Below, in pieces: positions 32,701 through 54,032 of a stretch of DNA of 64,000 bases. Positions within the stretch are counted from its first letter, which is position 1. The number at the start of each line of letters is the position of its first letter. The stretch is from Gracilaria domingensis (lineage: Eukaryota; Rhodophyta; Florideophyceae; Gracilariales; Gracilariaceae). The stretch spans positions 62,001-126,000 of the forward strand of contig VCMS01000074.1 of NCBI GenBank assembly GCA_022539475.1. Reading direction: 5' to 3'. The notes below the pieces were generated by a model. The model saw only the letters and a list, made by a program, of their open reading frames with translations, was not told the origin of the DNA and did not search any database. Made by a program: the position numbers and the translations under genes.

Positions 32701-33805
32701 GTGCAAGAGGAAGACCACCACATTGCTTCAACACAACGCTTACAGCTCCCTCATTCTCCTGGCTAAGCTGCTGATCCAATGGAAAACCGGCGTGAGTCAT
32801 TAGCATACGTCGCGCCAATGGACCTTGCGCTTCTTTCTCTATAAACTCAATCACGCTTTTCGTATGTTGACACAGAATCCGAGACCTTGTCGTGTAAATC
32901 AGACGACTGTTGCCACCCAAAATAGTTTCTAGAGTAGCTAGTTCTTCGGAAGTGATATCATTGACTGGCCATATGTCGTCTACTAGAAAGAGACATTCGC
33001 GTTGGTTGAACCACGGCGCCACTGCACAGCATACTTCCTCCAGAGATTTCATATTTCGCAAGCTTCTGGCCAAATTCTTGCCTCCAGTCAAGAGAACCAC
33101 TTTTCTCATTTCTTGGATGATCGTGAACACCTTGGCCTCATTTCCAAGCTGCATGAACAGAATACCTCCCGAGAACTTCGTCTTCACTTTTTCTTCTCTG
33201 CACACTTGGCGAAGTGCACAGGTCTTGCCAGCGCCTCCCAGCCCACATGCAATCACAGCAATGCTTCTGTTGCTCTGTTCCGACAACACTGCCGCCTTTA
33301 GTGCACTCTCAGGCGTAGAATCTGATGCGAAATCGAATGTTAAGCGCGGCGGATTCCTTGGAACATTATTCATCCCCTCCACATACGCATCGGATCCCAC
33401 ATCTTCTGGAACATTAGGAACATGTGAAGAAGTGCTGGGATTGAAATCAAGTATCTCGTTGATGTTGCTCTCACATTCATCCAGTATATGCCTCATTCTT
33501 CTCACGCGATTGGAGGCATTCGCATCTTCGATACTCGTGTGCCAATCCTGCATTTTTCTCTCGATCTCGATGAGTTCTTCTGTGAATCTCTGAAGTCTGA
33601 CATTGGAAATGAAATCAAGTCCTCCCTCGTCTTCGATATGCGTTATGATATCCACTGCCTGACGATACTTTCGTAGCACGCGTCTGAGGTGATCTTTGTT
33701 GTCATCCACAAGATCCCTACGTCGGTAGATGCTGTTAATGACCCTCTCTACCATACCCAGCCCTGCAAGAAGGTCTCCAGGTGTTGGTATGAATGCTGAC
33801 GCCAT
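29795..33805 (-). CDS. NB-ARC NTPase fused to WD40 repeats (NLR-like)
   Basis: 1336 residues in one exon. Residues 1-130 form a helical N-terminal domain with coiled-coil character. The NB-ARC module shows the P-loop GLGGAGKT (about residue 190), Walker B FLVDDIW, the sensor RLIYTTRSR, GLPLAL, and an MHD-like IHDLVLDLA near residue 490. A helical bridge follows, then from about residue 760 at least eight WD40 blades with GTxxATGSxDxTVRLWxVxxG patterns. The architecture matches NLR-type switches such as APAF-1 and plant or fungal STAND ATPases: ATP-driven oligomerisation after ligand sensing by the WD40 part. GC content climbs steeply in the last 700 bp (29.8-30.6 kb) relative to the N-terminal half. 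A decayed copy of this 3' end lies at 52.56-53.06 kb. The direct role (immunity, cell death, other) is inference. Confidence 0.92.
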   Translation of the reverse strand: MASAFIPTPGDLLAGLGMVERVINSIYRRRDLVDDNKDHLRRVLRKYRQAVDIITHIEDEGGLDFISNVRLQRFTEELIEIERKMQDWHTSIEDANASNRVRRMRHILDECESNINEILDFNPSTSSHVPNVPEDVGSDAYVEGMNNVPRNPPRLTFDFASDSTPESALKAAVLSEQSNRSIAVIACGLGGAGKTCALRQVCREEKVKTKFSGGILFMQLGNEAKVFTIIQEMRKVVLLTGGKNLARSLRNMKSLEEVCCAVAPWFNQRECLFLVDDIWPVNDITSEELATLETILGGNSRLIYTTRSRILCQHTKSVIEFIEKEAQGPLARRMLMTHAGFPLDQQLSQENEGAVSVVLKQCGGLPLALGIAGAAVRLYSEQRVENFQNAWNDYVQGCRTINDVDEERHGKLGLIVDSSLKALGNEADFKEKFEKLCIVRKKQDIPLLMLQCLWGAKDLRETMKWAKKLYDVSVVRIRREDEGRAYVEIHDLVLDLAVHRTSKEFRVECFKNLLANYKERAREMELELVDDRRSSTDLAISERRDTRLARLLKHARICFGGSEGLEMEGKVDVDAANESRREVRWAWWRFEDDSYILDNLCRVLYESGCLGELLWLLSQPNWIVVRLQDRGMYYVNEDVEWGKSALHETDSDSSSHMIHLETVRQAAQMSHTFVVRNTREAWFQVHGRLLQQAQSCERTRSFVTRIEECAPRPWAKASAGFLQQANEGLKELIDLEGEFRILCSFVRGHHVYAVLQSRVDLHGYCMWYDRKIGSQKLRKFQTEGENVADASQAAISTNLKKVAVGDVFGRVFVWDSETCLLCTTFKAHDTTIYGVALNDDGTRMATGSADSTVRLWNVENGEMVGQTLEGHTASVLCVALNRDGSRVVSGSADGTVRIWEVGSGEAVGQPLIVKQRCEAGGRVNCVAFSGDGERVVCGTGEVSGTVRSGTVCIWEVESGVMVGQPLIGDVGCVRCVAFSEDGKQVASGEDGTVRIWNAESGERVEEHRLKTRWPCICVAFNSDGTEVIYGTEDLALRIWVVGRRGRPFEPRGDDIVGVHCVAISGDGKRVVCASGDATLQVRDAASGQAVGQPLVGHTAMLQCVALSCDGTRVASGSPDGTLRVWEAESGAEVARHRLRDGVPGSVAFSGDGTRVAYTTYRLAGRPFYEYAVRVWRLRSAAAEAQRMAERAVDVWCVAMSADGSRVAFGTRGGALHVCDARSGARVCAPFQLGEALIRVGANADGTRVLCQLRSRRMALCDVQRGRRLGALLAPDDHAASSMHVTWGSRLREWEAWCWSESGPMLLGTFEHGLLRTSDGASVFRDANFRPVCEIEW

Positions 33806-34652
33806 GGCTTGTGGGACTCAGAATGCGGGCGGAAGGATTGAAAGAGTGAGGCAAATTGAGAAAGAAACGGGAGCGGAAAGTGCAGTTGGAGCTCACGCTT
33901 GAGAGATGGGGGAGAGTGTGGTTGTTGAAGCTCTGACCAGCTTTGCTGAGGCGTCGGCATGTGCATGAGTGGAGTTGTAAACCACTGCCAACGGTTTCAC
34001 CTCAAACCGTTGGTCTTGCGTGTGCCGATGGCTGCCACAGCCACCAATCTGTAACGAAAACGGAACAACACCAGAGATATTTATCGGCTATGGCCCCAGT
34101 AGAGAATGGGGCAACTTTTTCTTATCCCAATGAATTTGATGTTGGCGGCAAGGAGCTATTGCTTACTAGAGCAGCATATTCAAAACCAGCAGGCCTTAAA
34201 CTGCGGAGAGTTTAGGTACTATCGATAGTTGTGTCGAACAGGCCATTGAATTGAAATAATACACGAATAGGCAATGCGTGAAATGTGAAGAATGAATAGG
34301 GGCGCGTCTTCGTGATGTGTAGATGAACGTGCGGGCTTTGAGGAGTGTCCCACAACTCACGCGACATTGTGGCATTGCATCATCGTGATGCAATGACTAC
34401 GTCCCACAGAGCTGAAGAGAGGAAGGGCCTCAACGGTAGAGGAAGTGAGCACCAGAGTTCGTCGAAAGAATTCGCGTCAGGTCACAATCAGCCTCTGCTA
34501 TCAGCGGCGTCGCACGTGTACAACGGAAGCTAATGGACACGTAGTGCTGCTGTGATACATGTGCTCCGTGTCCAACGATGACAGTGGTGTGGAAAGAAAC
34601 TTTTCAGTTTTTGTTGAGCAATTTAGGAACATTTGCGAGCCGGCTACAAACT
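33806..34652. other. Intergenic stretch upstream of the NB-ARC-WD40 gene
   Basis: No convincing gene. It presumably carries the promoter of the minus-strand NB-ARC-WD40 gene. It ends where the left arm of the large inverted repeat begins. Confidence 0.5.
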
Positions 34653-34818
34653 TTCCCAGCAGCAACAAGCAGCTGAAGAGTCGCTGACAGCGTCCCCAAA
34701 ATTGAATTGATCTCAAAAGTTTAGTGAGTCGTTAAAAGTTTTTCCAAATATTTATCTAATACTACGAAAACGTTTTCAATTTGTTCCAAGAACGACAAAT
34801 TTCCAACGTGGACACCAA

Positions 34819-35346
34819 CTATCTACTTGTACCCAGGAGACTGTCCACGGACCGCCACTCCACCACCCCAGGCACTACCTTTGGTACCATCGGTTCCTCC
34901 GCCCCGTCAGACACCAGATGATTGGCAGAATTGCCTTCCCCAGGAAGATGGTCTGCCGACTCCTCAGCGGGAGGCCCGTGCTCCGAGCTCGGTGAATGCA
35001 CAACACTGGCAATCTCTGCGATTCGCAAGTCTAACTGACAGATTTCATCGTCGGTATCGACCCCGAGGGGAACGAGATCGCACGAATCGCAAGACAGCGT
35101 ATCTTCGTCGTCTTCCACGGGTCGATGGGTTCCTGGGAAAGATTTCCGCGAACAGGAACTATTAACCTGTCTTCCTTCATCGATTCCGAAGAGGCGCTGT
35201 GTCAAAAGCCAAATTTTAGCCTCCGGATCCACGGCCAGGGGACAAAGACCGGGCGAGCTGACTGAAAGTAACTCGTCGTCGTTCTCAGCAACCCCACCAG
35301 GGGTGAACTGGTTCGAATTTCTAGCTTCTTTCTGGGTGCTCTGCAT
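34819..35346 (-). CDS. Acidic ORF-A, left-arm copy
   Basis: 175 residues from an ATG at 35346, 55 bp downstream of a TATA box. It is acidic and Ser-rich throughout, with a motif GGVAENDDELLSVSSPGL near residue 17 and a repeated theme DDExxxLDLRIAE. No known domain, signal peptide or membrane segment. The N-terminal 55 residues align with ORF-B (GG, E, ELLSVSSPGL versus GG, E, TLSTVSTPEL), so the two are ancient paralogues. The right-arm copy (48291-48818) differs at only about three residues. Preservation of the frame in both arms argues for a real gene or a very recent duplication. Confidence 0.6.
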   Translation of the reverse strand: MQSTQKEARNSNQFTPGGVAENDDELLSVSSPGLCPLAVDPEAKIWLLTQRLFGIDEGRQVNSSCSRKSFPGTHRPVEDDEDTLSCDSCDLVPLGVDTDDEICQLDLRIAEIASVVHSPSSEHGPPAEESADHLPGEGNSANHLVSDGAEEPMVPKVVPGVVEWRSVDSLLGTSR

Positions 35347-35400
35347 GTCTAGATGTCTATGTCTAGTGCCTGTGTTTTCACACTGGAAATGTGAGCATGT

Positions 35401-35409
35401 ATATTTATG
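35401..35409 (-). promoter_or_regulatory. TATA box of ORF-A, left arm
   Basis: ATAAATATA on the minus strand, about 55 bp before the ORF-A ATG. An equivalent ATAAATATA stands before ORF-B in mirror position (36726-36733). Confidence 0.5.
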
Positions 35410-35608
35410 GGCACAGAGAAGCTCGCTATGCGCTGCTATTTCTTGGTCCCTGCGTCACAGCTCAGTTATATGACAAGAGAGCTGCCATTTCCTGTCTTGG
35501 GCCCCTCTTCTTTTGGGGGTAGTTTGGCGGAGTGTAGAAATGTATGAGCCCCCATTGTTCAATATCTCACTTCAGACCGATTTGATCGTCATAATTTTGT
35601 TTCGATCG

Positions 35609-35706
35609 CCTGTATCAGGATTCGAACCTTGAGGAAGGAGGCACACTTTAGAAGCTTCAACATTTGCGTCGATCTCGACATGGGATTTGCTACCAAGTTA
35701 TACGGG
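35609..35706 (-). other. tRNA-like segment A, left arm
   Basis: 98 nt. The ends CCCGTAT and ATACAGG can pair at six of seven positions. A pol III B-box-like GGTTCGAATCC stands near the 3' end and an A-box-like TGGTAGCAAATCC near the 5' end. The T stem is weak and no clean anticodon arm is visible, so it looks tRNA-derived, not a working tRNA gene. Confidence 0.4.
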
Positions 35707-36318
35707 TTCTGATTTCGATCAATGCTCTCGTGCATTGGGCATTTTAAGTTTTGCCAGAAAGGCCTTGAAGGATACTGCTGGAGCAGGGTTTCAATCCGGT
35801 TCCAACGACAATGCTATCGCAATATCGAAGAGGTTGGGGGATCCGCAGTTGGGGCGCGTGTATCGATGTACACGTGCACCACGTCCTATGATCAGGTCCT
35901 ATAAGGCCAAAACTTTAATTAAAATTCGAATTCGAACAAATATTTGCTTTTTAACGCAAATGAAAAACGTGTACGTTGTGGCAAAATCAGCAAAGTCGTC
36001 GAAGAAAGAGACTGCGTGCTATTCTAGCGGCTGTGTCGAAATTATTCGAAATGAACACCGTTCAATTGGTTGCCACACAAAATAAAGTAGAAATCAAACT
36101 GCATTTCTGTACAGGCGTGGAACACGCGGTCGACGTGGACACGATAACACGCGCCATGCCCGTGCCACCACTGCGGATCCCATCCAGGCGCGTCGATATC
36201 TGCGACCTGCTGGTCGCGATGCCCGCCCGCGGAACCTTCCGCCGGTGCCCCAGAGCTGTCTTTCGCGAAAGTTCTCGAAAAACGTGAAGCCCCAATTCAA
36301 CAGCGCGTAGATCGAAAT

Positions 36319-36428
36319 CCGATGGAGCAGAACTTGGTATCGAATCCCAGGTCGACTTCGACGCAATTGCTCAAGCTTTGCGCGTGTGTCTTCGTTCTCA
36401 CGGTTCGAATCCCGATGCGCACCATCGG
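36319..36428 (+). other. tRNA-like segment B, left arm
   Basis: 110 nt beginning CCGATGG and ending CCATCGG, a perfect 7-bp pairing, with GGTTCGAATCCCG before the 3' end. It is the diverged mirror counterpart of segment A. The extra bases between the T-arm-like part and the terminal stem argue against a functional tRNA. Confidence 0.4.
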
Positions 36429-36725
36429 CTGCATAACATGAGCGAATCTATTACGTCTCACGCTTCTTTGTTTTCTCTTAAATCACAGAGTATGTTTCTC
36501 ATATGCGTTGGGTCTTTCCCTCGCCTCAAACATCGCCAGTGATCTTTTGATGCGCAGGTGAGTCACATTTGGAGCAATGTGGTCTCATACATTTATGCTC
36601 CTCCACACAAACCGTAGTATATAACAGGGGCCTGATAGTGAGAAACTGAGTGCTCCATTCTCATATTTCAGAGCAAAGGGTCACGCAGCATGTAACGGAA
36701 GTCTGTTCCTCAAGTTGTCGGCTAC

Positions 36726-36733
36726 ATAAATAT
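36726..36733 (+). promoter_or_regulatory. TATA box of ORF-B, left arm
   Basis: CATAAATATAC about 90 bp upstream of the ORF-B ATG, in the same relative setting as the ORF-A TATA box. Confidence 0.45.
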
Positions 36734-36819
36734 ACGCACCCTTGTACGGGCTCTGTGGTCATATTTACTCGCCTCAGAGTGAACCATACCTATTTCCTGA
36801 GAAGTGAAGTAAAGAGAAA

Positions 36820-37250
36820 ATGGACGCGATCTCGAACCACGAGAGAGTGGCCGGTCATCGGCGTGTACGGGAGGGACTCCAGAAGAATCAGAAACGCTTT
36901 CGACAGTTAGCACGCCGGAGCTTGTGCCGATAGAAATGGGTTCGGACATCGAACTGGATGCCCTCTTCCTGGAATTCAATGATGTTTCGGAGCACGACGA
37001 GGAGACAGAGCCAGCTAAAGCCCAACCGACGGAGAAAGAGAGTTCTGCTTCTTGTGGTGCGAGCAGGGACTCAGTTCCAGAAGCTGCGCGAAGCTCGAGA
37101 AAAGACGATCATGGCAAACCAGATTTTGCCGCGGAACTTGTGGGGGCACGGGACATGATAGTCCAACAAGTCGGCGATGCTGTGAATTGGTCCGCCTTGG
37201 AGTCTGTCGTGGAGGGAAATCGGCGCATTGTTGTTAAAAGCGGAATATAA
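36820..37250 (+). pseudogene. Acidic ORF-B, left-arm copy (frame disturbed)
   Basis: The ATG at 36820 corresponds to the ATG of the intact right-arm copy (46817). Shortly after it this arm carries a 2-bp insertion (GAGAGAG versus GAGAG) that breaks the frame; the remainder (36924-37250) stays open for 108 residues. The encoded part is acidic with the motif STPELVPIEMGSDIEL and a C-terminal ARDMIVQQVGDAVNWSALES helix. The stop codon lies in the 8-bp target duplication of the adjacent miniature element. No known domain. Confidence 0.5.
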
Positions 37251-37251
37251 T

Positions 37252-37435
37252 CAGGGGTGTATTTGTGACTATCAAAATAGTAAATTGAGTAGTCATTAGT
37301 CAACAAAAATGGAAAATCGACTAGTCACAACGCTCTAATAATGAGAAACAAATAGGATTATGACTATACGTTCAGCTAAAGTAGTCAGTCAATCTCTATT
37401 ATTTGGCAAAATAGTCAGTCACAAATACGGCCCTG
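37252..37435. mobile_element. hAT-type MITE, 184 bp, left arm
   Basis: Ends CAGGGGTGTATTTGTGACT and AGTCACAAATACGGCCCTG are inverted repeats with two mismatches. The element is flanked by an exact 8-bp duplication AATATAAT (37244-37251 and 37436-37443), the hAT hallmark. It is non-coding. It sits between the convergent 3' ends of ORF-B and ORF-C. The right arm carries the same insertion with the same duplication, so it preceded the arm duplication. Confidence 0.9.
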
Positions 37436-37797
37436 AATATAATATCTTTGTTTGGCTCCGCCCTACGGTTATCTTTGGCAACTGCTTTCCTTGACTGAGG
37501 TTCACTTTTCTGTACCACAATACAAAAATGGGGCTCGCTACTGATTTTCAAAATGTGCCGATGGGATAGAAACATTTGAAATGAAATTATGTCCACTTCA
37601 GTGATGAAAACAGAAACTTCAAAGCAAGACTGATCCGAGTTTTTGTTTGCTTTCCAACCCATTCTGGGCTTTTCTGCAGTCGACCAAGCAGCTTGGATTT
37701 CTACAACGTAAACGACATGCAACTCATTATTGTTGACAATCAAATATTTAATGTCCCTGCCATGATTTTTAGTTGCAGCTCTCATGCCGTAAAGCAT
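37399..37797 (-). CDS. ORF-C, left-arm copy
   Basis: 132 residues from an ATG at 37797. It is beta-rich and mixed-charge (HVVYVVEIQAAW, CFEVSVFITEVDIISFQMF, PHFCIVVQKSE) without a recognised domain. The last residues and stop are provided by the MITE, so the original C-terminus was replaced. This copy starts differently from the right-arm copy because of an 8-bp insertion near its 5' end. Convergent with ORF-B. Confidence 0.45.
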   Translation of the reverse strand: MLYGMRAATKNHGRDIKYLIVNNNELHVVYVVEIQAAWSTAEKPRMGWKANKNSDQSCFEVSVFITEVDIISFQMFLSHRHILKISSEPHFCIVVQKSEPQSRKAVAKDNRRAEPNKDIIFRAVFVTDYFAK

Positions 37798-37807
37798 TTG
37801 AATGTGA

Positions 37808-37879
37808 CAACGAGACCCGAGTACAACAATGAACTGACTTGCAAGTTCGTTATTGTTGTACTATGTACTTGTCTCGTTG
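37808..37879. repeat. Palindrome at the inner edge of the left arm
   Basis: CAACGAGAC and GTCTCGTTG bound an imperfect inverted repeat of about 72 bp containing GTACAACAA and its complement. The homology of the two arms ends within about 10 bp of it. Confidence 0.65.
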
Positions 37880-37887
37880 CGAAACTA

Positions 37888-38912
37888 CACGGTGTACCAC
37901 ACCCACCCTAGGAGCAGCATCGTCCTGATGGGACTTGCTGAACGCGTACGGCATTTGCCGTACGGTGCAGTAGAGCTATAGGGGTAGTTGCCTGCTCTGC
38001 ATCTCCTACACTACCAAAACATAAAGATCAACGGAGTGCAAGCGAGATTGTACAAGATTGTCCTCACAAAGATAATTGTAGATTGTGATGCATCCGAGCC
38101 GCCATCTGTGCTGGAGCCTGTAGATACCCAAGCGTACAGCATGACACTGTCCTTGCTGTGTTCCTTGCTTGGGCTCGCAACAAGTGTAGACATGTAACGA
38201 AGTTTCGCCAAAAAGATGACCTTGATTGATCCAGTTCTTTCGCAGATCTAAATCGATGGGCGATTGCACTGCAATCGCTGGCCACAGTGTACAAGTACCA
38301 AAGGTACACAGCACGGACTAGGTGTGGCCTCCTCGCGCGCGGCTCGTGTGTTTTATCGCGACTCGTGTGTGATCGCGCGGCTCGCGCGTGATGGTGCTGC
38401 GGCTTTCCAAAAGCAAATTGCAGGAAAGCCGAGCCAGTCTGCTTCCTGCCCAACGATGAATGACATGGCCTGATGGCAGGAGCCCAGCAGTCGCAGTGCA
38501 TCTTCCTTCCAGATAGTTGTCCATCCATCCACAACCAGACCAAAGCGACCTTTCTGCTTCCCTTCACAATGGAGACACGAAAGACGTAGAGTTCGTTCTA
38601 CTCCGTGCAATTATAAAAGCAATGATTCCGGTACGAAAAACCAGATAGAATGCTGGAATAGGGCAGTTGTTTTCATGCAACACTCAATACTCGCGCAGGC
38701 TCATGCCTGAGGCCCACGTACCAAACGCAGACAGGACAAAGGCCTGTATCCTAGGAGACGATGCAACAATTAAACAGCATCCAACAAGAAAAGAGAAGTG
38801 TGACATAACTTCTTTATTCAGTTCATACTAAATGAGGTGCGGTAAATCGAAGCTATCTTTGGCCTGCCGCAGGCCAAAATTTTCAATTCGAAACGATGCA
38901 GAGTACGGTGTT
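37888..38912. other. Spacer sequence beside the left arm, no firm gene
   Basis: Contains a short dyad (CGTACGGC ... GCCGTACG, about 37946-37965). Minus-strand frames at 38353-38610 include FGLVVDGWTTIW, which faintly recalls the DGWTS segment of hAT transposases. It is too short and isolated to call. Confidence 0.3.
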
Positions 38913-39305
38913 CTAGTGCTTAGTGATGTGCACCTTGAACAAAAACTTGGGGAAGCACTTCTTGTACACGACGTTGACCAGCGTCTGGACGAGCAGGGTG
39001 TTGATGTTTCGGTCTTCGGTCATGAATCCATAGCATGGGTCCTTGAAGTCTAGGATAGCCTTCTTGGAGCCAAACAAGGCCACGCAGTCGCCCTCAACGA
39101 GCTGTTGGCGGTTGACGCTGATGACGTCATTCAAGAGAGCGCTGCAGAAGCACTTGCCGACCGGCCTGATCACGGCCTCGGTGAAGGCCGGGGTGCACGT
39201 GCCCACTGTCTCGGGGATTGTCGGCTCGGGCTTCGCCGGCAGGGTGGCCGGGACGGCGAAAGCGGTGGCTAGAAAAGCGAAGAAGACGATGGTGAAGGTA
39301 TTCAT
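38913..39305 (-). CDS. Small secreted cysteine protein
   Basis: 130 residues from an ATG at 39305. A clear signal peptide (MNTFTIVFFAFLATAFAVPA) is followed by a Pro-rich spacer and about 90 residues with six cysteines (GTCTPAFTEAV, GKCFCSALLN, EGDCVALFG, KDPCYGF, KKCFPKF). I recognise no named family. The even cysteine count after the signal peptide suggests a disulphide-stabilised extracellular protein. A good TATA box lies about 125 bp upstream. The gene is inside the spacer of the large inverted repeat. Its composition and clean frame support a live host-type gene. Confidence 0.65.
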   Translation of the reverse strand: MNTFTIVFFAFLATAFAVPATLPAKPEPTIPETVGTCTPAFTEAVIRPVGKCFCSALLNDVISVNRQQLVEGDCVALFGSKKAILDFKDPCYGFMTEDRNINTLLVQTLVNVVYKKCFPKFLFKVHITKH

Positions 39306-39429
39306 TGTGTTGACGGGAAAAGCACGGGAATGACTCGGCGGAGAAGATGCTGGAGATGTGGATCGGGAGGTGTAGTGGATCGGTGGTGGTGAATAGAATG
39401 TAGTGAGCTACCGGAGCGAACGGTGCGCA

Positions 39430-39436
39430 TTTTATA
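39430..39436 (-). promoter_or_regulatory. TATA box of the secreted cysteine protein gene
   Basis: TATAAAA on the minus strand within GCAATATAAAATGC, about 125 bp before the ATG at 39305. Confidence 0.55.
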
Positions 39437-40402
39437 TTGCGCTGCAGTACAGGATTCACAATGGGGATGGTCGGCTGTTCACATGAGGATATTGTTGTAT
39501 GTGATGAATTGTGTGCTCAGATGAGGGATGAAGAAATTCGCTGGAACATGTACTCGTCTTGAGCTGAGGAGCAACGTTGTGGGCTGGTGATACAAGCGGC
39601 ACATAACAGCGCTGCGAGACATGAACTGACGGGAGCGCGCCAGTGGGCAGGGCGGGAGTGATGGCGAGCGCGCGCACAAACTTGGCCAGTGGACGCGAGC
39701 CGTAAGAGCTGGAAGTAGAAAGCCGAGCGCGGATGCGGCCTGCCAGGCGGTGATGAGAGATCTGCTTTGTGCGGCCGTGTGCGGGAATTTGCGGACGGCT
39801 ACACGAGCCGGCGCACGCTCGCGGCAAGACGCTGCGGCAACAAGGCGGGTACAAGCTGGTGCCAACTGTACCTTCACTAGGGTTACCTTCATTCCTTGCG
39901 GCGCACTCGCGTATGTGAATTGTCAATTGGGCAGAACTAAGAGCTGATAACGTGTATACGCACCGAGGCTTCACGTCGCTCTCGTTCTTTTCTGGAATGC
40001 ACATAACAGGAAGAGATTGGCAGAGAGCATGATGTGCATCGGTTGGGGCCTGGTTGGGGCGCTTGCGAGAAGGATCGTCGGAATCTGGGCGAGCCATCTT
40101 ATGAGTAGGCAGCGATATATTTTGAGTACGTTTACCACAGTCAAGTACTCCCACAGAAGATGTTTTAGTCTTTACAGATTATCAGTACTCAGGTATCCTT
40201 AGGGATACCACTAGAATTTTTACCGTACATAGTGCTCTTCCCCATTGGTGACCGGTAGGCATACAGTAGATCTTTTTAGTAGTTGTGCAAGAACAGCAAA
40301 GTATCGAAGTCGATACCGTTATTCAGTCAACTCAACAACCAGTTGAGGGTACTTTCGTAGTTCCTTACACATTTATCTGACGTGGCTTATATGTGCCATG
40401 AG
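39437..40402. other. Intergenic
   Basis: A long minus-strand frame (39456-40154) is basic, Ser/Pro/Arg-rich and lacks any domain or signal; I do not accept it as a gene. No repeats stand out. Confidence 0.35.
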
Positions 40403-41043
40403 CAGGGGTGTAATGCAATATATTGCAAAATACAATAAAAATTTCATAATGCAAGGTAGTTGAGAATTGCAATTTATATTGCAGATTTATTATATAATGC
40501 AATACGTATTGGGGTAATTTCTGTATTGCACTCGTTATTGCATTATGTACAGATTCACCACGGCAATATCATTCGTAGGATGATTCTAAAAAGTTTGATA
40601 GAGTGGCATGCAAAGAAAATTGGGCAACTCACCGCGCCTGTACATTGCACATGTCGAAAATGAGCCACGATGCGCCTCGCTGTGCGTTCGTAGCAAAAAA
40701 CTTTGGGTGCAAAATTTACATATGCAAAACGTAACACGTTAGTGAAGCTAGAATTTCGTAAATACTGTTAAACCAAATTTTCCACGTTGTTCACCTCCAT
40801 TTTTAAAGAATTACATTGGACGTTAGGAGTAAAATTTTCAAGTCATTCAAAAAAAGTTAGTCTGATCTGGTTAGACCATTGCAGTGTTTTGCATGCTTTT
40901 TTAGATTTTAGATATCCCAAACATATTGCAAGTAAAAGGCGCTATTATTGCAATATACATTGCTGAAAAAGATCAATATTCATATTGTATTGAGTATTGC
41001 GAACTATCAGAAATATTTTGCAATATAATTGGTTACGGCCCTG
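40403..41043. mobile_element. hAT-like MITE, 641 bp, ATTGCA-rich
   Basis: The left end CAGGGGTGTAATGCAAT and the right end, read on the other strand, CAGGGCCGTAACCAATT continue as an inverted repeat of about 30 bp including ATATTGCAAAATA. The same CAGGG(G/C)(T/C)GTA start is seen in the MITEs of the inverted-repeat arms. The motif ATTGCA/TGCAAT recurs many times in both subterminal regions, as transposase-binding motifs do in hAT elements. No matching 8-bp duplication is left (GCCATGAG versus AATACTCG). Non-coding. Confidence 0.7.
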
Positions 41044-41249
41044 AATACTCGCAGTTACTGCAAATAATTTTGGATTTAACAACTAGGTGATAACGTATTA
41101 AATGTGGCCACCATTAAAACAGGTTTAAATCTGGTTAAGATCCTAAACTAATTTTGTAATAATGTCGAATATGATATTGCAATGACTTCCTAAGACATAT
41201 TTTAGGCTTCGTCTTATGATTATTTGCTAAAGGCCGTTATATGACTTTG

Positions 41250-41595
41250 TTAACCTCTTTAAGACGGTTCGCGTATGTCTAGTGAGCTAGACATAAGCGG
41301 GCAACATGATTGGCTAGCCGACATAACCAATCGTTGTCAGCGTGCCACTTGTCAGCTTGGCTTATGTCTAGCTCACTAGGCATAAGCAAAATTTTTTTTC
41401 AATTAGCTACAAATTCAATCCGTCTGAAATTAAACCAATAACATTCGAACTCGAGTACCACGTGTATTTCAGTCAACATGTTTTGTTACACCGCTCTCCC
41501 TCAGCCGCCTGATCGATTCATTTCTTTCCTTCTCATTGGCTATTTCTTATGTCTAACTCACAAGACATAAGAACTTTTCGTCCTAAAAGAGTTAA
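41250..41595. mobile_element. piggyBac-like MITE, about 338 bp between TTAA sites
   Basis: TTAA at 41250-41253 is followed by CCTCTTTAAGACGG. The far end reads, on the opposite strand, TTAA (41592-41595) then CTCTTTTAGGACG. TTAA target duplication with CC/CT-starting inverted ends is typical of piggyBac. Subterminal inverted repeats TATGTCTAG...CTAGACATA and CTTATGTCTA occur on both sides. No coding capacity. Confidence 0.65.
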
Positions 41596-44217
41596 ATTAC
41601 CAAATTCATAAAACGCCTCTTAAACCTAATTTGTTATATGGAAACGGTCAATCAAGTTTTGTGCAATAGCCATTGCACACGTGGACCCCAAAACGTTTCC
41701 GCTTCCGTTTCCGAAGGCAAGGCGAATCGATTCGCCTTCATGGAAAAGAAAGCTGCAAATGCCTTCATTCCCTCTAAATTGTAATTATAATCCCAAAATT
41801 TAAAATGGTTTCATGTCTTTCACCAAAGAATTTTGTTTCACAATTATTGCACAACCGAAATACAACATTATATCATTTAGCTAACAGTCAACAACAGTTT
41901 TGTAAAAGAGCATGTAGTAACCAATACAATTCCTTATTTAGAAAATATTCTTACCATTTAAATGAAAACAAAATATGCGAAAATCCACTGAAAGCTTGGT
42001 TTTTGTTAACCTATTGAAGAACTTGTGCACAAGTTTCAGATATTTAATATTATATCAACAACTGTTATGCTCTAGGAAACCAATTACCTTTACATTGTTA
42101 AATCTAACCACTTAGTATAAAATATAATGGACCAACCAAGCAACCATTTTCAAAGAAAGGAAGTTGTGTTAACGCAATGTCAAAGATCGCACGCAGCGCG
42201 ATCTGAACAAAGTTGGCAGCTCTGATCCAGAAGTGTATGAGCCGGTACCGTCGTGGGACGGTGGCGTCCCAGACACAAGTACAGTTACCTTGTCTCAAAT
42301 GCTATAAAGAAGTAAACTATATTCTTCGTCTCTAGAAACGCCTATTTTATGTACTAGCTACATCATACTTTCTCTGAAAATAGTGTATGACTGTACTATC
42401 GTAATAGAAAACAGAATACTATGTATTTGGAGAGAGAAACGAGGACGCTATTAATAGAATTACAACATTCGTGCTGTGTGAAAACTAGAAGTGTTTAACT
42501 TTTGTCAAAAGATTCAAAATGTTTTATAACCTCGAATCACCGCCTCTCATTAATTTTCCAATTCATTATTTCAACTTGTAGAATGACCAGTACGTTGAAA
42601 GCAAGGAAGAATTGGGGTTTCAAAATTTCTGTTTGCTTCTTTCCCAAAGTCATCGAAAGGCCCTAAAGCAACTTTGGCTGTAGAATTTTCGTACAATGTG
42701 AGTAGCAGCGATGTGCAATATATACATCGCAAGAATGCAAACTTCTCGATATACATAGATAAGTGATCCTCAAGGAGCGGTCAGTTCCGTATAATTAACT
42801 AGGTCTATCATTGCTTCGAGAAGCAAGCTTCTTTAAGAAAAACCTCGCAAAGCTCCTCTGTAATAAAAACTAGATAGAGTATGCTTTTCGGAGAAGTAAA
42901 AACTAAGTCGATCACGCTGCCATAACTTTTAAAAAGTCAGTATGCGATTGGTTTGCCTGTGGCAGTAGTAAACATGAAGAGCGCCAGTGCTTCAAAGATG
43001 AAAAACACCAAGGCTGTCGTTACACTATATTTTAATAGTAGTGTAATCAGTGTTTTTAAAAACGAGCTATAATGAACTACGAATAAAATGTAATGAACAG
43101 TATCCAAAGTTGTGGAAGAATTATACGTCTTCTTATAAAGCAGAGCGTTACATTTTTAAGGTTTTTGTTTACCTTTGATTTTTATTTGTTCTTAGAGTGC
43201 TAGAACCAAATATTCGATATATGACCTTTCGCAAGTAAAAACGTTGTGCTTGAATGAAGCCAAAAAGAAATTAGTTGGTTGAAAATTTTTCGAGAACTAG
43301 ACATTCTTTGGAAACCATGACTAATTTTAAATAAACAGTATTTTAAACGAATGTTGAGAGTCTTTTAGAGTCTTAAAGAATTTTTTTCTCCTTGCCCTCT
43401 CGAATCCTATTTTAAGTAGTACCAAAGTTTTGGAAGAAGTAATGACAATGCTTTTCAAAGAATGCTGATAACTTACAATTTAGGATATCTATAGGCATTG
43501 TCTTTAAAATCATGAGATGACAGAATGGTTTTTTTGCAGAATTTTAATTTGTTGGCATTTGTTGATCTCATGTAAGGGAGTTATCCAAAATCGAATGAAA
43601 ATGCGCCGTGTGACACGGCGCATTTTTTAAATTTTTTATTGTCTAATGGTACTGTTTGTCAAGGAATATGACTTGTTCTAATTAAAAGCGGTAAAATTTG
43701 AGGGTGTGCCAAGCAGTAGGTTCAGACAACCTGAAACCAGCTTTTTGCTGCTTTAAAATATGTTTTACTTTGAGCAAAGTGGTCGATTAGCTCAACTTTA
43801 GCTCTGCCCGTTTGTTGGTAAGAGCTTTGCTATTATGCCCATTGTCCAGGTGGCACCGTTGGACACAAAAAGAGCCGGCAAACAGTTTAAAATTAAGTTC
43901 TTTTTTATGATCCATGTCAAAAATATACGTCACATACATAAAAGTAAGTATATGTACGGCGTGTATCTAGCAAAGATTGCCTTGGACAGGAAATGAACAA
44001 CAACATGACAACAACTTGTTCTTGAAGATAGCAGGAGATCACGGAAGCATGGCGGGCAGAGCAGGCATGTGTGGAATCGCAGCCCCCCCGTCAACCCACT
44101 CGCATCGAAGATTCCTTCTACACCACCAAGATATAGGCGTATTTTGGAAGCCGAGCTGTGACAAAGGTACCAAGCTGCGAATCACGGAAACTCGAGCGAC
44201 AGCAGAAAAGCTCCAAA
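41596..44217. other. AT-rich gene-free stretch
   Basis: About 2.6 kb with only short chance frames. Two compact structures stand out: a perfect 20-bp palindrome at 41719-41738 (AAGGCGAATCGATTCGCCTT) next to an 8-bp-arm hairpin at 41660-41679, and a terminator-shaped hairpin at 43598-43626. No RNA gene was recognised. Confidence 0.5.
43598..43626. repeat. Hairpin with 13-bp perfect arms followed by T runs
   Basis: AAAATGCGCCGTG and CACGGCGCATTTT enclose TGA, followed by TTTAAATTTTTTATTG. The shape mimics a bacterial intrinsic terminator, but the context is eukaryotic and no gene ends here. Confidence 0.75.
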
Positions 44218-44721
44218 TCAAACAGCTACTATGCCCGGATCAGCCGAAGTCAAAACTGACATATACTCACACGCATCATCCGCTTGGAGGCATGTGACCG
44301 AATGAATGAGTCCTTGCGGAAATATGGTCGCCTCGCCCACCGACAAAACATTCATAACCACTCGAGGGTCCGCAACACCTTCAAACTGTAACATGGAACG
44401 CAGCGTACCACGGGTCACGATCAACACTTCGGTAGCACGAGGGTGAAAATGGGAGAAGAAAGAGCTGCCGACCGTCAGTTTCACTCTCGCAATGAAAACA
44501 TCCACGTCTGAAAAGCCTAGCAGCGGGAAATCCAAAGCAGATGCCGTCTCAGAGGTGAAACTGGCGGTAGAGGTCACTGCGCCGTCCGCGGTATCGATCA
44601 CAAAGTCGCCGTCGGCTAACCTTCCTCGTAGCATGTCAAGCGTCCTAAATGGGGGTACGCGGGCGTTTGCCATGCACAGAGCGGTGGCAAGAATGAGCAC
44701 AAAAAGCTTGGAGAATGACAT
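44218..44721 (-). CDS. Secreted germin-like cupin protein
   Basis: 167 residues from an ATG at 44721. The signal peptide (MSFSKLFVLILATALCMANA) is followed by a germin-type N-terminal region and a cupin barrel. Cupin motif 1 is visible as FFSHFHPRATEVLIVTRGTL (His, His and Glu metal ligands) and motif 2 as VGEATIFPQGLIHSV (the third His). These residues usually bind manganese or iron; germins and relatives act as extracellular oxalate oxidases, superoxide dismutases or structural wall proteins. The protein is shorter than plant germins (about 200 residues). The gene lies in the spacer of the large inverted repeat. Activity cannot be inferred beyond the metal site. Confidence 0.8.
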   Translation of the reverse strand: MSFSKLFVLILATALCMANARVPPFRTLDMLRGRLADGDFVIDTADGAVTSTASFTSETASALDFPLLGFSDVDVFIARVKLTVGSSFFSHFHPRATEVLIVTRGTLRSMLQFEGVADPRVVMNVLSVGEATIFPQGLIHSVTCLQADDACEYMSVLTSADPGIVAV

Positions 44722-45685
44722 GATTGCGTGGAACAGCTGAACTTCTTGTATATCTTGTCGAGCCGATGCCGGAACGATTGCTTTCGGGTTGAAGGATGTT
44801 GGCGGACGGCAGTTGAGGGATGGTGGCGAACGGCAGTTGTCAATTTATGTGGGTTTGGGTTGCACATTTGAACAATCATGGTCTGAGATCTACTGTGATC
44901 GTCAGCAGTGCGTGCACAACGAGAGAAGAAGATGGAAGAGCTTCATCGCGATTAATGTTGCCGATTCAACAATAGGTGTGCCACCGTTGGAGCTTGACAT
45001 ACGGTATTCCACTTGTTTACGATCCTCCAAATGAATTCTGAGCGCGTAGGAGAGTACGTAAATAATTGGAGAATATCTGAATGTTATACAGTGACTCTAC
45101 ACAGTGTTGCTTGACGAACAACCCTCACAAATGATGTGAGCTCGGACTGGCAGCGTGTCCAGCAGGAAGATGAGAACAAAGAACACAGATTAGTTCATGT
45201 TGGGCAAGCCGCGAAGAGTGTATTCTAGCACTTTCTGAATTTAACGAAGCTGAACCAAGGGCCTGAGCTCTAAAACCTCATTATGTCTACTTCAATGAGG
45301 ACTGAATTCTCAGGTTCTCTCATGGGCGAGGATTGCTCAGCAATGGATGTAGCAATGCCTCCGATATGCAAAGGAAACTGCAGAACTGTTCCAGATTTCC
45401 AGGTAGAGGCCTTGCAACTTGATATACACGTGTACATGCATCGGTATGCTAACATCTGTATGCTAACATGGAAATGCCTTCTGGATGACGTGGAATTCGG
45501 AATCCGCTGGGTCTTGTTGTTGTACTTGTTATGTGCACCAAAGATATCCTGTAAGCTGTGTGATGCCTCGGCAACACCACCTCGGCTGTACCCTTCTTCG
45601 TAAGGGGATTTAGGGGATTTAGTACCTTGGTACCATACCAAAGTGTGCTAACTGCTGATCTTCCCGTTCATCTTCATCTTGCACA
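44722..45685. other. Intergenic, upstream of the cupin gene
   Basis: A two-copy direct repeat of about 23 bp (GGCGGACGGCAGTTGA and GGCGAACGGCAGTTGT, about 44798-44840) lies upstream of the cupin gene. A TATA-like GATATACAAG stands very near its ATG. Frames at 45270-45641 on both strands are not convincing. Confidence 0.4.
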
Positions 45686-46240
45686 ATGAAAAACGTCAGT
45701 TTTGGAAGGGGTAGCCCTGTGTTTCACATGTACATTTTGTCGTTGGCATCAGAGATATCTAGTTTGGCAACGAGACAAGTACATAGTACAACAATAACGA
45801 ACTTGCAAGTCAGTTCGTTGTTGTACTCGGGTCTCGTTGTCACATTCAAATGCTTGAGAGCTGCAACTAAAAATCATGGCAGGGACATTAAATATTTGAT
45901 TGTCAACAATAATGAGTTGCATGTCGTTTACGTTGTACAAATCCAAGCTGCTTGGTCGACTGCAGAAAAGCTCAGAATGGGTTGGAAAGCAAACAAAAAC
46001 TCGGATCAGTCTTGCTTTGAAGTTTCTGTTTTCATCACTGAAGTGGACATAATTTCATTTCAAATGTTTCTATCCCATCGGCACATTTTGAAAATCAGTA
46101 GCGAGCCCCATTTTTGTATTGTGGTACAGAAAAGTGAACCTCAGTCAAGGAAAGCAGTTGCCAAAGATAACCGTAGGGCGGAGCCAAACAAAGATATTAT
46201 ATTCAGGGACGTATTTGTGACTGACTATTTTGCCAAATAA
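45686..46240 (+). CDS. ORF-C, right-arm copy with extended N-terminus
   Basis: 184 residues from an ATG at 45686. The first 25 or so residues lie in the spacer, then the frame enters the arm and its inner palindrome, so the N-terminus differs from the left-arm copy. From CLRAATKNHGRD onwards it matches the left copy almost exactly. Beta-rich, no known domain. The last residues and stop come from the MITE end. The ATG could equally be inside the arm. Confidence 0.45.
   Translation: MKNVSFGRGSPVFHMYILSLASEISSLATRQVHSTTITNLQVSSLLYSGLVVTFKCLRAATKNHGRDIKYLIVNNNELHVVYVVQIQAAWSTAEKLRMGWKANKNSDQSCFEVSVFITEVDIISFQMFLSHRHILKISSEPHFCIVVQKSEPQSRKAVAKDNRRAEPNKDIIFRDVFVTDYFAK
45768..45839. repeat. Palindrome at the inner edge of the right arm
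   Basis: CAACGAGAC (45768-45776) and GTCTCGTTG (45831-45839) bound an imperfect inverted repeat, the counterpart of 37808-37879. Confidence 0.65.
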
Positions 46241-46387
46241 TAGAGATTGACTGACTACTTTAGCTGAACGTATAGTCATAATCCTACTTGTTTCTCATTA
46301 TTAGAGCGTTGTGACTAGTCGATTTTCCATTTTTGTTGACTAATGACTACTCAATTTACTATTTTGATAGTCACAAATACACCCCTG
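46204..46387. mobile_element. hAT-type MITE, 184 bp, right arm
   Basis: Same element as at 37252-37435 in reverse orientation, flanked by ATTATATT (46196-46203 and 46388-46395), the reverse complement of the left-arm duplication. Terminal CAGGGACGTATTTGTGACT and its mirrored partner are intact. Confidence 0.9.
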
Positions 46388-46388
46388 A

Positions 46389-46817
46389 TTATATTCCGCT
46401 TTTAACAACAATGCGCCGATTTCCCTCCACGACAGACTCCAAGGCGGACCAATTCACAGCATCGCCGACTTGTTGGACTATCATGTCCCGTGCCCCCACA
46501 AGTTCCACGGCAAAATCTGGTTTGCCATGATCGTCTTTTCTCGAGCTTGGCGCAGCTTCTGGAACTGAGTCCCTGCTCGCACCACAAGGAGCAGAACTCT
46601 CTTTCTCCGTCGGTTGGGCTTTAGCTGGCTCTGTCTCCTCTTCGTGCTCCGAAACATCATTGAATTCCAGGAAGAGGGCATCCAGTTCGATGTCCGAACC
46701 CATTTCTATCGGCACAAGCTCCGGCGTGCTAACTGTCGAAAGCGTTTCTGATTCTTCTGGAGTCCCTCCCGTACACGCCGATGACCGGCCACTCTCGTGG
46801 TTCGAGATCGCGTCCAT
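46389..46817 (-). CDS. Acidic ORF-B, right-arm copy (intact)
   Basis: 142 residues from an ATG at 46817. Acidic (many Glu and Asp), Ser-rich N-terminal half with GGTPEESETLSTVSTPELV, an EEETEPAKAQPTEKESS low-complexity stretch, and a C-terminal amphipathic segment (AVELVGARDMIVQQVGDAV). No signal peptide, membrane helix or known domain. The N-terminal region parallels ORF-A. A TATA-like box lies upstream. The left-arm copy is frame-disturbed, so this is the one intact B copy in the window. Role unknown. Confidence 0.55.
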   Translation of the reverse strand: MDAISNHESGRSSACTGGTPEESETLSTVSTPELVPIEMGSDIELDALFLEFNDVSEHEEETEPAKAQPTEKESSAPCGASRDSVPEAAPSSRKDDHGKPDFAVELVGARDMIVQQVGDAVNWSALESVVEGNRRIVVKSGI

Positions 46818-46903
46818 TTTCTCTTTACTTCACTTCTCAGGAAATAGGTATGGTTCACTCTGAGGCGAGTAAATATGACCACAGAGCCCGTACAAGGGTG
46901 CGT

Positions 46904-46911
46904 AAATTTAT
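46904..46911 (-). promoter_or_regulatory. TATA-like box of ORF-B, right arm
   Basis: CATAAATTTAC on the minus strand, one base different from the left-arm CATAAATATAC. Confidence 0.35.
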
Positions 46912-47208
46912 GTAGCCGACAACTTGAGGAACAGACTTCCGTTACATGCTGCGTGACCCTTTGCTCGGAAATATGAGAATGGAGCACTCAGTTTCTCACT
47001 ATCAGGCCCCTGTTATATACTACGGTTTGTGTGGAGGAGCATAAATGTATGAGACCACATTGCTCCAAATGTGACTCACCTGCGCATCAAAAGATCACTG
47101 GCGATGTTTGAGGCGAGGGAAAGACCCAACGCATATGAGAAACATACTCTGTGATTTAAGAGAAAACAAAGAAGCGTGAGACGTAATAGATTCGCTCATG
47201 TTATGCAG

Positions 47209-47318
47209 CCGATGGTGCGCATCGGGATTCGAACCGTGAGAACGAAGACACACGCGCAAAGCTTGAGCAATTGCGTCGAAGTCGACCTGGGATTCGATAC
47301 CAAGTTCTGCTCCATCGG
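47209..47318 (-). other. tRNA-like segment B, right arm
   Basis: Same as 36319-36428 in reverse: terminal CCGATGG/CCATCGG pairing and a GGTTCGAATCCCG B-box-like motif. Confidence 0.4.
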
Positions 47319-47930
47319 ATTTCGATCTACGCGCTGTTGAATTGGGGCTTCACGTTTTTCGAGAACTTTCGCGAAAGACAGCTCTGGGGCACCGGCGGAA
47401 GGTTCCGCGGGCGGGCATCGCGACCAGCAGGTCGCAGATATCGACGCGCCTGGATGGGATCCGCAGTGGTGGCACGGGCATGGCGCGTGTTATCGTGTCC
47501 ACGTCGACCGCGTGTTCCACGCCTGTACAGAAATGCAGTTTGATTTCTACTTTATTTTGTGTGGCAACCAATTGAACGGTGTTCATTTCGAATAATTTCG
47601 ACACAGCCGCTAGAATAGCACGCAGTCTCTTTCTTCGACGACTTTGCTGATTTTGCCACAACGTACACGTTTTTCATTTGCGTTAAAAAGCAAATATTTG
47701 TTCGAATTCGAATTTTAATTAAAGTTTTGGCCTTATAGGACCTGATCATAGGACGTGGTGCACGTGTACATCGATACACGCGCCCCAACTGCGGATCCCC
47801 CAACCTCTTCGATATTGCGATAGCATTGTCGTTGGAACCGGATTGAAACCCTGCTCCAGCAGTATCCTTCAAGGCCTTTCTGGCAAAACTTAAAAAGCCC
47901 AATGCACGAGAGCATTGATCGAAATCAGAA

Positions 47931-48028
47931 CCCGTATAACTTGGTAGCAAATCCCATGTCGAGATCGACGCAAATGTTGAAGCTTCTGAAGTGTGCCTCC
48001 TTCCTCAAGGTTCGAATCCTGATACAGG
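47931..48028 (+). other. tRNA-like segment A, right arm
   Basis: Same as 35609-35706 in reverse: CCCGTAT and ATACAGG ends and GGTTCGAATCC. It lies upstream of ORF-A on the same strand. Confidence 0.4.
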
Positions 48029-48228
48029 CGATCGAAACAAAATTATGACGATCAAATCGGTCTGAAGTGAGATATTGAACAATGGGGGCTCATACATTTC
48101 TACACTCCGCCAAACTACCCCCAAAAGAAGAGGGGCCCAAGACAGGAAATGGCAGCTCTCTTGTCATATAACTGAGCTGTGACGCAGGGACCAAGAAATA
48201 GCAGCGCATAGCGAGCTTCTCTGTGCCC

Positions 48229-48237
48229 ATAAATATA
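48229..48237 (+). promoter_or_regulatory. TATA box of ORF-A, right arm
   Basis: ATAAATATA about 54 bp before the ORF-A ATG at 48291. Confidence 0.5.
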
Positions 48238-48290
48238 CATGCTCACATTTCCAGTGTGAAAACACAGGCACTAGACATAGACATCTAGAC

Positions 48291-48818
48291 ATGCAGAGCA
48301 CCCAGAAAGAAGCTAGAAATTCGAACCAGTTCACCCCTGGTGGGGTTGCTGAGAACGACGACGAGTTACTTTCAGTCAGCTCGCCCGGTCTTTGTCCCCT
48401 GGCCGTGGATCCGGAGGCTAAAATTTGGCTTTTGACACAGCGCCTCTTCGGAATCGATGAAGGAAGACAGGTTAATAGTTCCTGTTCGCGGAAATCTTTC
48501 CCAGAAACCCATCGACCCGTGGAAGACGACGGAGATACGCTGTCTTGCGATTCGTGCGATCTCGTTCCCCTCGGGGTCGATACCGACGATGAAATCTGTC
48601 AGTTAGACTTGCGAATCGCAGAGATTGCCAGTGTTGTGCATTCACCGAGCTCGGAGCACGGGCCTCCCGCTGAGGAGTCGGCAGACCATCTTCCTGGGGA
48701 AGGCAATTCTGCCAACCATCTGGTGTCTGACGGGGCGGAGGAACCGACGGTACCAAAGGTGGTGCCTGGGGTGGTGGAGTGGCGGTCCGTGGACAGTCTC
48801 CTGGGTACAAGCAGATAG
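48291..48818 (+). CDS. Acidic ORF-A, right-arm copy
   Basis: 175 residues, open and almost identical to 34819-35346 (Gly/Glu, Glu/Gly and Met/Thr differences seen). Acidic, Ser-rich, no known domain, with two C-S-C-like cysteines in the middle (SCDSCDLVPLGVDTDDE). That CDLVPLGVDTDDEICQLDL block resembles the protein's own earlier segment LCPLAVDPEAKIWLL, suggesting an internal repeat of about 80 residues. The same block also resembles ORF-B, so the family may be built from one short repeated module. Function unknown. Confidence 0.6.
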   Translation: MQSTQKEARNSNQFTPGGVAENDDELLSVSSPGLCPLAVDPEAKIWLLTQRLFGIDEGRQVNSSCSRKSFPETHRPVEDDGDTLSCDSCDLVPLGVDTDDEICQLDLRIAEIASVVHSPSSEHGPPAEESADHLPGEGNSANHLVSDGAEEPTVPKVVPGVVEWRSVDSLLGTSR

Positions 48819-49295
48819 TTGGTGTCCACGTTGGAAATTTGTCGTTCTTGGAACAAATTGAAAACGTTTTCGTAGTATTAGATAAATATTTGGAAAAACT
48901 TTTAACGACTCACTAAACTTTTGAGATTAATTCAATTTTGGGGACGCTGTCAGCGACTCTTCAGCTGCTTGTTGCTGCTGGGAACGACCTCCACCATAAT
49001 ACCACTCGGGCGTTTTCAGAGTTGGCCTCCTTCAAACCAGTCCTGCCAGCAACTAGAGCAGCTTCTTCCAAGTACAAAGAGCTTTCCCCGATCTATTGCG
49101 CTGTATGGCGTGAAAATGGAACAAGGGCACGTGGAGAGCAGGCACAGACTAGGATTTGCCCTTATTCCGCAACGGCAATTGGAATCGGAAGTTGAGAGCA
49201 GTGCACGGCCCTGACTCGCGCCGGTTGGCGAGAGTGCCATGGTGCAAGCCACGGCAGGGAGACGCGCCTACCTCGGCGACCAGGAGGCGCAGACC

Positions 49296-49780
49296 ATGCA
49301 CGTTTCGAGCAGGCTGTTGCTCCTGCTTCTCCGTCTTGCTGGCGTTGGGCACCGCGCTACCGTGCTAGTACGGCAGCGGCGCGCAGTCCCAGATCGTCTG
49401 GTCCGAGCAGCCGTCGTTTCCAATGCCGGATGCGGCGACCCGCTCTGTCGAAAGCATCCTGCTGGCTGCAGAGAACGCTGCCGAGCAGAGCGAGTTCACG
49501 AACGCCGCTCGACCGGCCCGCGTTGGCGAGCTCGTCAACGAGCCCCACTTCTGGCGCAGCACGCGTCCGCGCGCCACCAGCCGCGTGTGCCCACCCGCGC
49601 GCGGCGCCGCCGCGCGCGCGCTCCGTCGCGCACGTCGCCTACGTGTCGTGCCGCCGCCGGCGCACGGCGCGGCGCGCACAAGTTCCGCGCGCGCCCCGCG
49701 TGACGCCGGTGTGCGCTCGCGGCGGCTCCGGCCGCGGCGCATCGCTCGCCGCTGCGCAAGAAAAGGACGCACGCTATTGA
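49296..49780 (+). pseudogene. Decayed gene for a secreted protein, GC-rich
   Basis: A signal-like start MHVSSRLLLLLL (ATG 49296) is followed, in a neighbouring frame, by FSVLLALGTALPC, a stop, and then a sensible-looking stretch QIVWSEQPSFPMPDAATRSVESILLAAENAAEQSEF to PHFWRST (about 49395-49560). At least one frame change and one stop separate them. I do not recognise the family. Downstream to about 49780 all frames are Arg/Ala-rich because of very high GC content. It begins about 310 bp outside the right arm of the inverted repeat. Confidence 0.3.
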
Positions 49781-49981
49781 TCGCGGAGCATGTGGCGAAA
49801 GACCAAGTCGCAGTTGAAAACAAGGCAGCGCCGTCGGACGCCTGCATTTATTTCTTTTTCTTCACTTCATCTGTTGCCTTCAAATGATGCCTTGGTAAGC
49901 CAGTTGCCCAAGTACTTAGCGGCGCGTCCAGTGCGTCAGTCGTAGTTGTGACAAAAGAAGGCCCGGTTGCTTGGTAACGAC

Positions 49982-50254
49982 TTAGAGAGTAGGAATACAG
50001 AACTTCCCTTCAGTCCAGCAAAAGTCGCGATAACCGCACTGGCTGTCTACTTGGCATGGCACGAACTCCCTCATCTTGGCAAACGCGTACTCTGTCGCAT
50101 GCGCATTAATCTCATCCAATTGCGTGTTGAACATCCTGTTTCGCAACGGCAAATAACCTTCGCCCACGCGTCGTTCTCCCCCCCACAATGGAAAGGCGGA
50201 AGCAGTAGCGGCAATGAATGCAACCACGGCGAAAACGATTCTGATAAAAGTCAT
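49982..50254 (-). CDS. Small secreted peptide with four cysteines
   Basis: 90 residues from an ATG at 50254. A strong signal peptide (MTFIRIVFAVVAFIAATASA) precedes a mature peptide of 70 residues. The C-terminal 25 residues hold CQVDSQCGYRDFCWTEGKFC, with spacing C-x5-C-x5-C-x6-C, similar in style to disulphide-knot modules (colipase or dickkopf-like fragments), though too short to assign. No transmembrane segment or GPI signal. Third or fourth small secreted protein gene in the window. An effector, defence or wall role is conceivable but not shown. Confidence 0.6.
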   Translation of the reverse strand: MTFIRIVFAVVAFIAATASAFPLWGGERRVGEGYLPLRNRMFNTQLDEINAHATEYAFAKMREFVPCQVDSQCGYRDFCWTEGKFCIPTL

Positions 50255-53944: not shown

Positions 53945-54032
53945 ATTTGTAGTGAAATAGTGAAAGAAGTGCACGATACGAATTGCAGCTACCGATGTTC
54001 AGTCCGGGAGAAATGTGAAGAGGTTGATCCGC

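Follow-up and report, generated by a model that had tools for sequence, protein, structure and literature searches.

In the current analysis of a 64-kb stretch of DNA from the red alga Gracilaria domingensis (contig VCMS01000074.1, positions 62,001 to 126,000, referred to here as the window and numbered from its first letter), we have identified a 14.3-kb locus in which a 3.2-kb segment occurs as two nearly identical, inverted arms separated by a spacer (Table 1). Each arm is itself made up of an older inverted duplication, with two units that have a promoter-like anatomy in common and carry a small acidic open reading frame (ORF) each. This is probably a nuclear-type locus in which fold-back or template-switch repair has recently made an inverted copy of an old head-to-head pair of paralogous genes. 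Its structure is more suggestive of an accident of DNA repair than of a novel type of mobile element.

Self-alignment of the window with BLASTN places the match between the arms (34653-37887 against 48984-45760; 99.04% over 3235 columns, E = 0) at the top of 33 rows after the trivial one. Comparison of the arms position by position gives 21 substitutions, which by our own count are 13 transitions and 8 transversions, together with one 2-bp and one 8-bp indel. The outer edges are abrupt, the arms being common from TTCCCAGC onward and unrelated upstream of it. The inner edges are abrupt as well, the arms parting 8 bp past an imperfect palindrome of 72 bp. The locus is an inverted segmental duplication, with two near-identical inverted copies and distinct flanks. 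The first-pass annotation of this DNA, which had suggested a self-alignment as a check, had described two near-identical 3.2-kb arms in reverse orientation, a 7.9-kb spacer (7872 bp) and abrupt outer edges, and these descriptions hold. No third copy of the arm is found in the window, and the spacer matches itself there in one internal palindrome only (41268-41390).

An assembly artefact, either a chimeric inverted copy or two misjoined haplotypes, is quite unlikely to account for the arms. A divergence of about 1% is plausible as an allelic level, but the differences, comprising transitions, transversions and only two indels, are unlike homopolymer errors, and the flanks differ at the outer as well as the inner edges. 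Only 4 of 23 arm-to-arm differences fall in the intergenic 46% of the arm (P 0.005) and a stretch of 929 bp has none at all (P 0.01); both tests were picked post hoc, and gene conversion would lead to the same pattern.

The older layer of duplication is seen within each arm (units A and B of the left and right arms are referred to as LA, LB, RA and RB). When the two halves of the left arm are aligned locally with gaps, the score is 372, as compared with at most 171 for 100 pairs after shuffling in 100-bp blocks. The duplication is centred near 36.01 kb, in agreement with the earlier proposal of an older inverted duplication around 36.05 kb. Its support sits in a few pieces: in the comparison of LA with RB, pieces of 183 bp (69%), 116 bp (66%) and 50 bp (76%) are well supported, one of 33 bp is marginal (E 0.048) and the remainder of the long alignment is gap-rich. 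The core of the 183-bp piece is a segment of 146 bp, 35614-35759 against 36416-36272, which is also detected in the BLASTN self-alignment (73%, E 1.8e-16).

Elements common to both halves are a noncoding segment rich in TCGAA, the CTCATACATTT box, a TATA element and a short ORF for an acidic protein, and within the units the order is core, CTCATACATTT, CATAAATATAC and ORF. The box occurs exactly four times in the 64 kb, always within the arms, and CATAAATATAC is exact in three of the four units, the RB copy being different at one base. The first-pass annotation, which had assigned both elements to all four units, was accurate for the box and, apart from this base, for the TATA element. The distance between the two elements is 128 bp in LA and RA and 130 bp in LB. 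Divergent, or head-to-head, duplicated gene pairs with a bidirectional promoter are a known arrangement. The arm resembles them in that two paralogues diverge from a common core with mirrored promoter-like elements; unlike them, it has a noncoding core better conserved than its ORFs, and the pair has been inverted and duplicated once more.

This better conservation of the noncoding core, relative to the adjoining ORFs, belongs to the old duplication. One frame is open in both core copies up to a common TGA. A coding origin of the segment has been rejected despite this frame, since the mismatches are spread over the three codon phases evenly (15, 15 and 14) and the core is therefore not evolving as coding sequence. 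The region between the divergent ORFs (35347-36819) contains 19 TCGAA motifs, where the same count on the remainder of the window predicts 3.9 (nominal P 3e-8, the best of 463 5-mers); these 19 hits represent 14 distinct sites, as the palindromic TTCGAA is counted twice. The arm cores are the densest 1-kb stretches for this motif in the window, with 19 occurrences compared to a median of 2 and a highest non-arm value of 11 (at 4801). The cluster may well be regulatory. It is improbable that the mirror-symmetric core acts as a functional unit, either a symmetric enhancer-promoter working in both directions or a replication or recombination hub, which is preserved despite drift in the proteins under its control and which favours its own duplication in inverted form.

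A transfer RNA (tRNA)-like segment had also been proposed for each unit, and this assignment fails. ARAGORN detects no tRNA gene in the window, and allowing introns or relaxing the thresholds yields none in the left arm either. No tRNA is matched in the Rfam scan of 34000-50000 at E values up to 10, and a fold at least equal to that of the native sequence was reached by 126 of 200 shuffles for one core copy and by 166 of 200 for the other. An origin of the conserved segment from a tRNA or a short interspersed nuclear element is thus not supported. The exact 11-bp sequence GGTTCGAATCC, which we take to be the RNA polymerase III B-box consensus, is present in each unit within the densest TCGAA cluster of the window, and it is probably what prompted the tRNA-like label. 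The Rfam scan gave only five matches, each under its gathering score. In four of them a microRNA-precursor model is matched by the right-arm inner palindrome (best E 0.065, 27.5 bits against 64), and these are taken as hairpin matches.

The acidic ORFs contain 32 acidic and 12 basic residues among 175 (ORF A) and 29 and 11 among 142 (ORF B). A motif of about 32 residues is found twice in ORF A (A1 and A2), and a related one once in ORF B. With the pieces cut by eye, the likeness was reached by 0 of 500 shuffles for A1 and A2, 0 of 500 for A1 and B and 7 of 500 for A2 and B, and by 3 of 300 for whole A against whole B. BLASTP between the two ORFs is weak (E 0.006, a single comparison), the likeness being restricted to the short motif. 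The claim of an acidic ORF in every unit stands for the composition of both A and B; the left copy of B is frameshifted by 2 bp, leaving a remnant of 104 aa from an ATG at 36936, and A and B are alike in the motif only.

No family has been assigned to ORFs A and B from Pfam, PHROGs or PDB sequences. Pattern searches gave 99 and 2 matches in viral_contigs (alignment and ORF A) and 44 in genome_contigs (ORF B only), none of them confirmed, and the left arm has no DNA-level match in plasmids or phages; these collections cover viruses, plasmids, phages and prokaryotes and say little on algae. The AlphaFold model of ORF A has a mean predicted local distance difference test score of 44.9, with short helices predicted at residues 41-52 and 98-116, a low confidence throughout, such as a disordered protein or an alignment of little depth (here 4 rows) would give. 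Both ORFs are presumably expressed. Another ORF of the arm (37402-37860) gives below-cut-off Pfam matches to DUF2726 (E 0.11) and UPF0738 (E 0.14).

A miniature inverted-repeat transposable element (MITE), with an 8-bp target-site duplication AATATAAT and ends (CAGGG) that we take to be hAT-like, lies over the stop codon of ORF B. It is present in both arms and hence predates the recent inverted copying, while its absence from unit A suggests that it was inserted after the old duplication. The order of events is therefore old head-to-head duplication, divergence and recent copying, with the MITE insertion presumably falling between the last two. An AT-rich repeat in the spacer (40403-41043) has ends, CAGGGGTGTA...ACGGCCCTG, that by eye resemble those of the arm MITE.

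Foldback (FB) and other long-inverted-repeat transposons have long inverted arms around a spacer, and the locus is like them in this respect. The first-pass annotation had suggested a new class of giant fold-back element carrying cargo. That the whole 14.3-kb structure is such a transposable element, with the 3.2-kb arms as terminal inverted repeats, is highly improbable: the geometry of long inverted arms and cargo-like spacer speaks for it, but, unlike in FB transposons, no target-site duplication of at least 5 bp and no mobility domain has been found. The 20 bp outside the two outer edges share no 5-mer, shorter target-site duplications not being covered by this comparison. Pfam detects no transposase, integrase or reverse transcriptase domain in all 12 spacer ORFs and in the six of 11 left-arm ORFs that were scanned (at least 100 aa), and PHROGs no mobility domain in five ORFs. 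Insertion as an element is therefore poorly supported. The spacer contains a cupin gene and AT-rich DNA, and one of its ORFs gives a below-cut-off Pfam match to V-cyclin_C (E 0.075).

The arm alone could also be an interspersed repeat, such as a non-autonomous element, inserted twice in opposite orientation 8 kb apart, which we regard as unlikely. Its outer and inner edges are common to both copies and the inner edge is palindromic, as at some element ends; on the other side, the 20-bp flanks on the left and right of each copy have no 5-mer in common (shorter ones again not being covered), the two ends of the arm have no mutual match in the self-alignment at E 1e-5, and the window holds no third copy. 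The scanned left-arm ORFs contain no transposase, a gene that a non-autonomous element would not need.

Recent copying of a host gene pair by repair remains the preferred reading, since the copied tract, the palindrome at its inner edge and the intervening spacer together fit fold-back or template-switch repair. The inner break lies at most 8 bp from the end of the palindrome, and 7 of these 8 bases are common to both arms and indistinguishable from the end of the duplicated tract. Such proximity is rare elsewhere in the window: in an ungapped census, which yields 4 palindromes, only about 0.29% of the positions outside the arms are 10 bp or less from a palindrome end. The coincidence of inner edges and palindrome described earlier is thus found at this distance, with a palindrome that is imperfect (gaps of 5 and 1). 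A 20-mer of it has no exact match in viral_contigs.

In a published series of human fold-back inverted duplications (PLoS Genet 2014, PMC3907307), all 21 sequenced junctions have a spacer, of 766 to 70,466 bp; 13 show 2-8 bp of inverted microhomology, 3 have inverted repeats of about 300 bp and 5 have insertions. The locus is similar to these cases in its inverted copies and in a kilobase-sized spacer, which is non-duplicated as far as the window goes, and short inverted homology is present at many of their inner junctions. It is unlike them in being 3.2 kb, internal and drifted by 1%, the human cases being large rearrangements that involve translocations, rings or the deletion of chromosome ends. 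Amplification of a host locus driven by a palindrome, the other suggestion of the first-pass annotation, fits better than an element, with the break at most 8 bp from the palindrome and the spacer within the published range (PMC3907307).

The proposed course of events would begin with the head-to-head duplication of a unit of regulatory DNA and a small acidic-protein gene, resulting in divergent paralogues A and B on either side of a common TCGAA-rich core. After long divergence the hAT-like MITE would have inserted at the end of gene B. Recently, at about 1% divergence, an inverted copy of the whole 3.2-kb pair would have been made at a distance of 7.9 kb. This is likely to have started with a break, or with the stalling of a fork, at the palindrome of the inner edge, where a strand may have folded back or changed template and, after copying the arm, rejoined. 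Drift of the two arms would have followed. The genome looks like an ordinary nuclear one and the host would be a eukaryote nucleus; the fold-back step is suggested by the structure of the locus.

Several observations weigh against this reading. The coincidence of palindrome and breakpoint is a single event without statistics and is suggestive only. The arm palindrome is detected with gapped scoring only, and the ungapped census behind the figure of 0.29% misses it. With gapped scoring the score of the left inner palindrome is reached by five clusters, itself among them, and its right-arm copy scores 52, under 60. A small internal copy needs a rejoining step that has left no visible trace, the published cases (PMC3907307) being large and having arisen at broken chromosome ends, and the count of arm copies covers the window only. 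As to which arm is ancestral, ORFs and palindromes across the joined flanks give no signal: the longest ORF over the join has 103 codons with the right arm removed and 79 with the left arm removed, as compared with a median of 172 for random joins of window pieces, or 156 with similar flank lengths, and palindrome scores across both joins are low (16). Protein constraint after the recent duplication is not apparent either, the arm-to-arm changes being 3 synonymous and 3 nonsynonymous in ORF A and 0 and 4 in ORF B (counted from residue 39 of the right copy).

Table 1. Features of the inverted duplication and its spacer (positions in the window)
Feature	Position	Strand	Remarks
Left arm	34653-37887	+	99.04% inverted match to 45760-48984
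Right arm	45760-48984	-	Self-alignment and position-by-position comparison
Spacer, 7872 bp	37888-45759		Between the arms
Old unit LA	34653-36015	-	Mirror copy RA 47622-48984 (+); half-against-half alignment
Old unit LB	36016-37260	+	Mirror copy RB 46380-47621 (-); half-against-half alignment
Acidic ORF A, left copy, 175 aa	34819-35346	-	Intact
Acidic ORF A, right copy, 175 aa	48291-48818	+	Intact
Acidic ORF B, left copy	36820-37250	+	Frame broken; 2-bp length difference at 36841-36842
Acidic ORF B, right copy, 142 aa	46389-46817	-	Intact; its TATA element is one base off the other three
TATA element CATAAATATAC of LA	35399-35409	-	Others at 36725-36735 (+) and 48228-48238 (+)
CTCATACATTT box of LA	35538-35548	-	Others at 36584-36594 (+), 47043-47053 (-) and 48089-48099 (+)
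TCGAA/TTCGA motif cluster	35601-36409		Between the divergent ORFs; 19 hits, 14 distinct sites
Conserved noncoding segment of LA	35614-35759	-	73% to 36272-36416; GGTTCGAATCC at 35618-35628
Conserved noncoding segment of LB	36272-36416	+	GGTTCGAATCC at 36402-36412
MITE, hAT-like ends, AATATAAT target-site duplication	37244-37443		Over ORF B stop codon; both arms, with point differences
Imperfect palindrome, left-arm inner edge	37808-37879		Mirror at 45768-45839
Spacer ORF, 130 aa, secretion-signal-like start	38913-39305	-	By eye
AT-rich spacer repeat, hAT-like ends CAGGGGTGTA...ACGGCCCTG	40403-41043		By eye
Cupin ORF in spacer	44218-44844	-	Pfam

The rest of the window encodes a number of other domain-containing proteins. 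An ORF of 1340 aa (29795-33817, -) combines NB-ARC with WD40 beta-propeller repeats, an immune-receptor-like architecture. An AIG1-like GTPase domain has been identified in each of two ORFs (17391-18737, - and 21798-23237, +), and a DDE_Tnp_4 transposase domain in each of two others (8141-9427, - and 12259-13566, +), which are presumably PIF/Harbinger-like. Two overlapping ORFs in different frames (24946-26186, +) match consecutive portions of the octopine dehydrogenase helical domain and are perhaps one gene with an intron or frameshift; a dinucleotide-binding domain is also present in the first of them. A TIMP-like ORF (28651-29433, +) and a DM9-repeat ORF (53480-53998, -) are also encoded. 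The strongest palindrome of the window (50876-51004; 129 bp, 94%) is directly followed by one of 36 bp (51006-51041).

The locus preserves, in readable form, the traces of two inverted duplications that followed one another, the later one having a palindrome at its breakpoint. If host palindromes mark the edges of other inverted duplications, fold-back repair would become testable outside yeast and human. Leads for regulatory study are the acidic protein family, in which a motif is repeated, and the symmetric TCGAA core, whose conservation exceeds that of the adjoining genes.

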